This document shows, one piece after another, positions 13,179-62,934 of a DNA stretch of 64,000 bases (position 1 is its first letter; every line of letters starts with the position of its first letter). Location of the stretch: the NCBI RefSeq assembly GCF_001999905.1, contig NZ_CP019640.1, positions 80,001 through 144,000 of the forward strand. The letters are read 5' to 3'. The notes under the pieces are model-generated. The model had not been told where the DNA came from. It was given only the letters and a program-made list of their open reading frames with translations, and made no database searches. The DNA comes from Planococcus lenghuensis. GTDB lineage: Bacteria; Bacillota; Bacilli; Bacillales_A; Planococcaceae. A program made the translations under genes and the position numbers.

Positions 13179-13432
13179 ACAATCAGTAAAACGCTGACGG
13201 GAAGAAGTATGTGCATTAAGCTCCAAAGAGAGGATCATCACTGGCTGAAAGTGATCCGGGCCTCTGATGTGCAGAATTGCATCCCTGAGTGCTGAGTCGA
13301 AGTTAAGTAGACCAGACGCATAGCCTGCGTTACAGGCATCTTGAGCGGGAAAGGGAAACATAGCCTTTCCAATTCAGAGTGGAACCGCGCAATCAGCGTC
13401 TCTGTCACATGTTGACAGGGACGTTTTTTATT
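13179..13432 (+). promoter_or_regulatory. T-box leader (tRNA-Cys) controlling cysES
   Basis: The T-box AGAGTGGAACCGCG spans 13376-13389. Its TGGA at 13380-13383 would pair with the acceptor end of a tRNA carrying discriminator U, as tRNA-Cys has. In the probable specifier loop, TGC (Cys) occurs at 13278-13280 in the context GAATTGCA. The competing terminator is CGTCTCTGTCA...TGACAGGGACG followed by T6 (13397-13431). Uncharged tRNA-Cys should stabilise the antiterminator and allow cysE-cysS expression. The leader fills the whole gltX-cysE gap. Confidence 0.93.
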
Positions 13433-20299: not shown

Positions 20300-20440
20300 G
20301 TTGAACAATCACATATTTGTACCGCAGACAGCAGGGGCCTTCAGTGCTTAATCATCCTGCCGAGGTCATGATCATTTCAGGTTATCCTTTAAATGAGACT
20401 GATTTATGCCTCCGCGTCTGTGACCGGAGGCTTTTCTTAT
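20300..20440 (+). promoter_or_regulatory. ribosomal protein L10 leader RNA
   Basis: The leader holds the conserved Firmicutes L10-leader core (ACCGCAGACAGCAGG ... AATCATCCTGCCGAGGT at about 20320-20366). It ends in a terminator-like hairpin GCCTCCG/CGGAGGC at 20408-20431 followed by TTTTCTT. The known mechanism is feedback by the L10(L12)4 complex binding the leader. The match is by eye to the Rfam L10_leader family. Confidence 0.85.
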
Positions 20441-20476
20441 AGCGGTATAAGTAAAAAATCTACAGGAGGTGCCAGA

Positions 20477-61420: not shown

Positions 61421-61795
61421 ATGAGAAAGCTTGGACGCACAAGTTCTCAGCGGAAGGCACTTTTGCGTGACCTAACGACTGACTTGATCGTACATGAACG
61501 CATTCAGACAACGGAAGCCCGTGCAAAAGAACTGCGCTCAACTGTTGAAAAAATGATTACACTTGGTAAGCGCGGGGACCTGCATGCACGCCGCCAGGCA
61601 GCAGCATACATTCGCCGTGAGACTGTAACAGCAACAGACGAAGCTGGCGAAGAGACAACTGTTTTCGCATTGCAGAAACTGTTTAACGACGTGGCACCAC
61701 GCTATGCAGACCGCCAAGGCGGATACACGCGGATCCTGAAACTGGGTCAGCGCCGCGGCGACGGAGCACCTGTAGTCATTATTGAATTAGTTTAA
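61421..61795 (+). CDS. rplQ: ribosomal protein L17
   Basis: A 124-residue protein at the tunnel exit (120 in B. subtilis). [18 protein letters not shown] start. AAGGAGGG site. It ends the alpha operon and a terminator and then a large hairpin follow. Confidence 0.97.
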
Positions 61796-61800
61796 ACAGC

Positions 61801-61852
61801 AGGGAGAAGTAGGCAGGAATCGGCTGGTCCGATATGCCTCCCTCCCTCTTTT
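61801..61852 (+). terminator. terminator of the alpha operon
   Basis: AGGGAG...AGGCA...ATCGG pairs with CCGAT...TGCCT...CTCCCT with internal loops, then CTTTT. The arms are long but interrupted. The stretch 61853-61930 has no gene. Confidence 0.7.
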
Positions 61853-61930
61853 CAAATCAGTATTTATACGACGATAGGAAAAGCTGAGCGTTATGATGAA
61901 CGAGTCTTATTAAAAGGCGGCGTTTCGTCT

Positions 61931-62022
61931 AGCTCTACGCACCCCATTCACTGTCCGGCTTAAGCAACCGGATTAGCCATAGAGAAAAAGCGCATTTCGT
62001 GAATGGGGTGCGCGCTTTTTTT
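61931..62022 (+). ncRNA. large structured element between rplQ and ecfA1 (possible pseudoknot or switch)
   Basis: CGCACCCCATTCAC (61938-61951) pairs perfectly over 14 bp with GTGAATGGGGTGCG (61999-62012), with a 47-nt enclosed segment. In the same sequence AAAAAGCGC (61985-61993) can pair with GCGCTTTTT (62012-62020), a 9-bp terminator-like hairpin ending in T7. The two helices cross, so they form a pseudoknot or are alternatives. The enclosed segment also has TCCGG/CCGGA. Possibly a terminator, a switch or an L17-downstream-type element; no family can be named. Confidence 0.5.
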
Positions 62023-62085
62023 ATTTATTTTTACATAATAAGCAGAGGTTGAGCAGAGCAGAGGCGAAACAGGAGGCGAGCAGAG

Positions 62086-62934
62086 ATGAAAACGGAAGCA
62101 TTGTCATTCACTGATGTGACATTTACATATAACCCCGAAAGTGAAGCGGGGATGCCTGCATTGCAAGGTGTATCGTTTTCTGTATTCAGCGGTGAATGGA
62201 TTGCAATTGTGGGTCATAATGGTTCAGGGAAGTCAACGGCCGCTAAACTGATGAACGGGCTGCTGTTCCCGCAGGAAGGGATTGTCCGTATTTTAGGAGA
62301 TTCACTTTCTGAAACCAACCTATGGGATAAGCGATCAAAAATGGGAATGGTTTTTCAGAATCCCGATAATCAGTTCGTCGGTGCAACAGTACAGGATGAT
62401 GTGGCTTTTGCACTTGAAAACAACGGAGTCCCGCATGCGGAAATGGTAGAGCGGGTGCAGGCTGCTTTGCAGCAAGTCAACATGGCGGCGTATGTTAATC
62501 ATGAACCGCATCATCTGTCGGGCGGTCAAAAGCAACGGGTCGCGATTGCCGGCGCTCTGGCTTTAAAACCGCAATTGCTGATTCTGGATGAGGCGACTTC
62601 CATGCTTGATCCGCAGGGGCGTCAGGAAGTCATCAGGACAATCCGGGAATTGCGGAAAACCGAGCCGGTAACAGTGCTGTCGATTACACACGATTTGGAA
62701 GAAGCGGCGTTGGCCGACCGGATTCTTGTACTGAATGCCGGTAGAAAGTATAAGGAAGGCTCGCCGGAAGAGATTTTTTCTCACGGCAGTCAATTAGAGG
62801 AACTAGGGCTGGATTTACCTTTCACTATGCGGATGTCGCATTTACTTCGTGCCTCAGGTATAAAAATCCAGGAAGAACACATGTCAGAGCAGGAGCTGGT
62901 TGAAGAGTTATGGATATCTTACTGCAAAACGTAG
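62086..62934 (+). CDS. ecfA1: EcfA1, ECF transporter ATPase
   Basis: A 282-residue ABC ATPase that powers vitamin uptake with EcfA2, EcfT and various S-components. Walker A GHNGSGKS at 43-50, Q-loop FQNPDNQF, signature LSGGQKQRVA, and Walker B LLILDEATSMLDP. AGGAGGCG site. It overlaps ecfA2 by 25 nt. Confidence 0.96.
   Translation: MKTEALSFTDVTFTYNPESEAGMPALQGVSFSVFSGEWIAIVGHNGSGKSTAAKLMNGLLFPQEGIVRILGDSLSETNLWDKRSKMGMVFQNPDNQFVGATVQDDVAFALENNGVPHAEMVERVQAALQQVNMAAYVNHEPHHLSGGQKQRVAIAGALALKPQLLILDEATSMLDPQGRQEVIRTIRELRKTEPVTVLSITHDLEEAALADRILVLNAGRKYKEGSPEEIFSHGSQLEELGLDLPFTMRMSHLLRASGIKIQEEHMSEQELVEELWISYCKT

Follow-up and report, generated by a model that had tools for sequence, protein, structure and literature searches.

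To our knowledge, L17DE has remained an orphan RNA ever since 2010, and its annotation is that of a 3′ element of rplQ in lactic acid bacteria and Listeria. It was described from Lactobacillales and Listeria, where often no gene follows it; feedback through the 3′ UTR was suggested, no obvious similarity to rRNA was noted, and an RNA overlapping an L17DE had been seen on microarrays (Weinberg et al. 2010, PMC2864571; SR79100, cited therein). Other reports place L17DE exclusively in Firmicutes and consistently downstream of L17, with the proposal that the encoded protein, or one of the operon upstream, could be its binding partner (PMC7247131), and predict it in the rplQ 3′ UTR of enterococci (PMC7724050).

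Here we describe an element lying between rplQ and ecfA1 in a window of 64,000 nucleotides from Planococcus lenghuensis (contig NZ_CP019640.1, positions 80,001 to 144,000 of the forward strand); all coordinates below refer to this window and all features lie on its plus strand. With L17DE the element shares the P1/P2 domain with GAGYGTTAYGAT...GTCTAGCTC, the position right after rplQ, the single copy per genome, and covariance matches that run both ways at the same positions. Unlike L17DE, it has a separate rplQ terminator upstream, it extends beyond the 3′ end of the Rfam core with a long helix whose 3′ strand is shared with a terminator hairpin, and it precedes ecfA1. The lineages differ as well, Planococcaceae and Bacillaceae here as opposed to Lactobacillales and Listeria.

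Homology to L17DE and distribution

A sequence-only reading of the window had drawn attention to positions 61931–62022 and had named the L17 downstream element among the Rfam families worth comparing, which turned out to be the right family. The window scored 22.8 bits against L17DE (RF01708) over 61885–61958, below the gathering cut-off of 37 bits, while a class-wide search placed L17DE at the orthologous gap of several genomes of the same family, two of them at or over the cut-off (41.2 and 37.0 bits). In the reverse direction, a covariance model built from the family's element (R1) matched Streptococcus-type and Enterococcus/Vagococcus-type L17DE loci at the correct place (E 1.7e-4 to 0.17) and gave no match on five loci without the element; the designations Streptococcus-, Vagococcus- and Enterococcus-type denote lineages inferred from near-identical loci (Vagococcus L202, Enterococcus L214) or from gene content. 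The P1/P2 domain has the L17DE sequence and structure GAGYGTTAYGATG...GTCTAGCTC, and the element sits directly downstream of rplQ in all loci examined. Judged from these sequence comparisons, the element is a homologue of L17DE even though the copy in the window does not reach the curated score, and we class it as a distant relative rather than a curated member.

Conservation among related Planococcaceae, which the sequence-only reading had expected of a genuine element, was borne out. R1 matched 258 of 261 family genomes; none of the 251 good-quality genomes and none of the 19 genera lacked a match, and each genome gave a single one except for two in one incomplete genome. It also matched 67 of 299 genomes (26 of 116 genera) in a related order, and 4 of 398 genomes across the phylum. 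Carriers include Planococcus, Sporosarcina, Lysinibacillus, Solibacillus, Psychrobacillus, Ureibacillus, Metalysinibacillus, Rossellomorea, Domibacillus, Neobacillus, Cytobacillus and Peribacillus. The P. lenghuensis genome has one copy, which rules out an inserted repeat, the alternative that the earlier reading had named as a refutation.

In every locus read the element follows rplQ, and in the Bacillales loci, from the family and its sister families alike, ecfA1 comes next. Streptococcus-type genomes have the element after rplQ with no ecfA downstream but other genes instead, often one that we take, from its sequence, to be glutamate-cysteine-ligase-like. In P. lenghuensis the U-tract lies 63 nt from ecfA1. 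No sigma-70-like promoter was recognised at 61700–62150, and a promoter of the element's own was rejected on that ground. A simple scan found a further terminator between the element and ecfA1 in 13 of 37 family loci.

Anatomy and strand competition

Aligning the gap in 37 relatives revealed a conserved unit spanning 61861–62021, which starts about 70 nt upstream of the interval first noticed and takes in the P1/P2 domain. It thus exceeds an ordinary terminator, as the sequence-only reading had held, and the 92-nt stretch 61931–62022 by itself folds at -34.3 kcal/mol, shuffled versions at -22.5 +/- 3.0 (z -3.96), with none of 200 shuffles doing as well. The ordinary intrinsic terminator of rplQ noted in that reading is visible upstream of the element at about 61801–61852, as a hairpin followed by CTCTTTT, with sequence-varied counterparts in the family loci read. 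From 5′ to 3′, the element comprises an ATACGAC block, GGAAAAGC, P1 (GAGC/GCTC), P2, a long helix enclosing a variable hairpin, a competitor strand and a terminator.

The 5′ block, TATTTATACGAC (61861–61872), is unpaired, and its ATACGAC core is almost invariant in the 37 family sequences; the block also occurs in one sister family and is absent farther away, and neither a pairing partner nor a promoter role was found for it. Pairing of the 5′ ACGA with the UCGU of P2 showed apparent covariation within a single genus but breaks down in Sporosarcina-type sequences and in those from sister-family genomes. A leader peptide was likewise discarded, given that the ATG in GTTATGATG is not conserved and appears as GTTACG and GATTGG variants in the family alignment.

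The L17DE core begins with the P1 5′ strand GAGC (61886–61889), whose partner is GCTC (61932–61935); P1 is paired in 100% of cells, with CG/UG variation, and agrees with the Rfam L17DE alignment. P2 pairs 61895–61902 with 61921–61929, five of its eight pairs being changed on both sides, a level that none of 500 shuffles reached. The 3′ strands of P2 and P1 (61921–61935) hold the conserved GTCTAGCTC, a near-invariant L17DE motif.

Downstream lies a perfect 14-bp long helix (61938–61951/61999–62012), the 5′ strand of which is CGCACCCCATTCAC. Four of its pairs are changed on both sides, amounting to 21 such cells versus 4.9 in shuffles, and controls slid along the alignment fell far below that count. 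Outside the family, the long helix pairs with very different letters (mean z -4.0; 40 sequences, nearly all Bacillales), as exemplified by ATGCGTCTTTTCAC with GTGAAGAGACGCAG in locus L223. Within the long helix lies P3 (61953–61973), a computed GTCCGG-loop-CCGGAT hairpin with a variable stem and a conserved loop in the alignment, the window's loop resembling the CTTGAGCA of most relatives.

Both helices described in the sequence-only reading can form in the window: besides the 14-bp helix, AAAAAGCGC (61985–61993) is able to pair with GCGCTTTTT (62012–62020), and this 9-bp pairing crosses the long helix. Of the 9-bp helix only the GCGC part stood up in the 37 relatives; 85% of its cells are paired, single A-U pairs are lost in up to 17 of the 37, and no compensatory change was found among them. 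Its exact register gives way to a conserved 10-bp competitor hairpin, GCGCATTTCG/TGGGGTGCGC (61990–61999/62004–62013), which uses another register of the same strand and was reported independently by a terminator scan as GCGCATTTCG-TGAA-TGGGGTGCGC at 61990–62013, followed by GC and the U-tract (62014–62022). Its nine aligned pairs are paired in 97.6% of cells across the 37 relatives. Covariation in this register did not exceed shuffles in the family, where the terminator strand is nearly invariant, and so the compensatory changes anticipated for both helices were found for the long helix and not for the terminator. The competitor was rejected as a universal hairpin, being significant only in part of the families (mean z -0.9 across other families); its strand recurs with other letters in some other lineages (L051, z -4.4; L218, z -3.4; L119, z -2.4).

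The 5′ arm of the terminator hairpin (61990–61999) nearly repeats the 5′ strand of the long helix (CGCATTTC versus CGCACCCC), and GGGGTGCG serves both helices on the 3′ side. The shared strand GTGAATGGGGTGCGC (61999–62013) can therefore enter either the long helix (61999–62012) or the terminator hairpin (62004–62013), and because nearly the whole hairpin 3′ strand is common to both, the two are mutually exclusive. Of the two topologies suggested earlier, a pseudoknot or a two-state switch, the former falls away: two coexisting crossing helices of the H type are not what we find, since the crossing register is kept only in GCGC and the conserved hairpin overlaps the long-helix strand. As both helices require the same 3′ strand, the topology is one of strand competition, which agrees with the exclusivity that a two-state switch would need.

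Computed folding of the element gave a ground state that combines P0 with P1, P2 and the long helix; in P0, GGAAAAGC (61877–61884, with a nearly invariant AAGC) pairs with GCTTTTTT in the U-tract (62014–62021), so that the end of the terminator doubles as the P0 3′ strand. The state with P0, P1 and the long helix lies near the energy minimum, whereas the terminator state is about 5 kcal/mol higher on average and within 1-3 kcal/mol in some species. Because the computed terminator hairpin loses to the long helix at equilibrium in almost all sequences, switching would need kinetics or a ligand. P0 could not be accepted as a proven helix in the family: it scored no better than shuffles, given that an A-rich strand always pairs with a U-tract. 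Its counterpart in elements of the Vagococcus/Enterococcus type, CACUUUAU with AUAAAGUG, did better than shuffles (p about 0). In these loci (L074–L079 and L081), this strong outer L17DE helix uses the terminator 3′ strand and lies outside the Rfam model.

A candidate conditional terminator and competing roles

With terminator/antiterminator riboswitches and attenuator leaders the element shares alternative helices on one strand by a U-tract, upstream of a transport operon, but unlike them it has no Rfam riboswitch match. It also resembles ribosomal-protein leaders such as the L10 leader in being a structured RNA tied to a ribosomal-protein gene, yet lies downstream rather than upstream of that gene. 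Its predicted anatomy is riboswitch-like, combining a candidate conserved sensor domain with a platform of exclusive helices. The window also contains a T-box leader (13185–13406) and an L10 leader (20304–20446), both at gathering score and ordinary.

We give about even chances to the element being a conditional terminator that sets read-through toward ecfA1-ecfA2-ecfT. The homology, the conserved place, the single copy, the covariation of P1/P2 and of the long helix, and the sharing of a strand are the observations on which this proposal builds. The P1/P2 domain (61886–61935) would act as sensor and the 3′ half as expression platform, with the sensor choosing the winner between long helix and terminator hairpin. 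As long as P1/P2 holds, the long helix would form, P0 would pair GGAAAAGC with the U-tract, and RNA polymerase would continue toward ecfA1-ecfA2-ecfT; if the long helix were delayed or opened, the competitor GCGCATTTCG would capture the shared 3′ strand, the terminator would form by the U-tract, and transcription would stop. Actual switching, its direction, ecfA1 read-through as the output and the existence of a signal are what we infer from this architecture. Given the 63 nt between U-tract and ecfA1 and the failure to recognise a promoter, transcription of ecfA1 in P. lenghuensis probably must cross the element, which makes read-through the simplest output. A role confined to the ECF genes is less likely in view of the Streptococcus-type elements without ecfA and the extra terminator before ecfA1 in 13 of the 37 relatives, and the same observations leave some probability to an rplQ-side function or to that of a small RNA.

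On the ribosomal-protein side, the element may instead be where the rplQ (alpha operon) transcript has its 3′ end regulated, possibly through binding of L17 or of another protein from that operon, with ecfA1 a mere neighbour. We regard this as unlikely. In its favour, rplQ is directly upstream in every locus read, even where ecfA is absent, and the 3′ UTR feedback proposal (PMC2864571), the suggestion of protein binding (PMC7247131) and the enterococcal rplQ 3′ UTR prediction (PMC7724050) fit it as well. However, Bacillales have an ordinary terminator between rplQ and the element, so that most rplQ mRNA would be without it, and no obvious rRNA similarity was found by Weinberg et al. (PMC2864571).

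Quite unlikely, in our estimate, is a small stable RNA or 3′-UTR-derived sRNA, the transcript of which would end at the terminator and then refold, with the long helix and P0 closing off its 3′ end. The compact conserved unit ending in a U-tract, the pairing of both ends by P0 (strong in the Vagococcus/Enterococcus type) and the array-detected RNA overlapping an L17DE (SR79100, cited in PMC2864571) fit such a role, whereas the lack of a recognisable promoter upstream, the lack of conserved single-stranded seeds other than ATACGAC and the P3 loop, and the strict position before ecfA1 in Bacillales speak against it. An unregulated double terminator or insulator between two operons is improbable. 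The family conserves the hairpin, and other terminators often flank it, but this reading would leave unexplained why the P1/P2 motifs hardly vary, why a long helix that takes the terminator apart covaries, and why conservation extends across families.

Between the element and ecfA1, the window carries tandem (G/U)AG triplets with 2-3 nt spacers (62045–62085), which overlap the ecfA1 ribosome-binding region and resemble sites of TRAP (MtrB), a protein that binds (G/U)AG triplets spaced 2-3 nt. Similar triplets occupy the same place in L004, L017, L022, L136, L139 and L149. Taking one sequence per genus, the longest (G/T)AG chain upstream of ecfA1 averaged 3.7; shuffles gave 1.3, and the stretch after rplQ gave 1.0. 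The P. lenghuensis genome encodes TRAP, as do all 37 genomes tested in the family; the five relatives that have no TRAP gene lack the repeats, and so do some genera that have one. Based on these sequence patterns, the putative TRAP sites could place the ECF module under tryptophan-dependent control.

Implications for L17DE and the ECF module

The ECF module serves many vitamin transporters. A literature search at the level of titles and abstracts (ECF with riboswitch; rplQ with ecfA1) returned nothing linking the element to ecfA and named no RNA regulator of the ECF module. That the element represents a new metabolite- or protein-sensing RNA class, coupling alpha-operon transcription throughout Bacillales to the energizing module that ECF vitamin transporters share, seems doubtful to us, and a vitamin signal is weakened by the members of this RNA family that sit behind rplQ in genomes without ecfA downstream.

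The family itself was already known; what is new here is an L17DE relative in Planococcaceae and Bacillaceae with a conserved long helix and terminator. Every good-quality Planococcaceae genome that was searched, and many Bacillaceae, carry an RNA of the L17DE family, and the strand-sharing terminator, together with the place before ecfA1, provides a testable mechanism and tractable hosts for L17DE.
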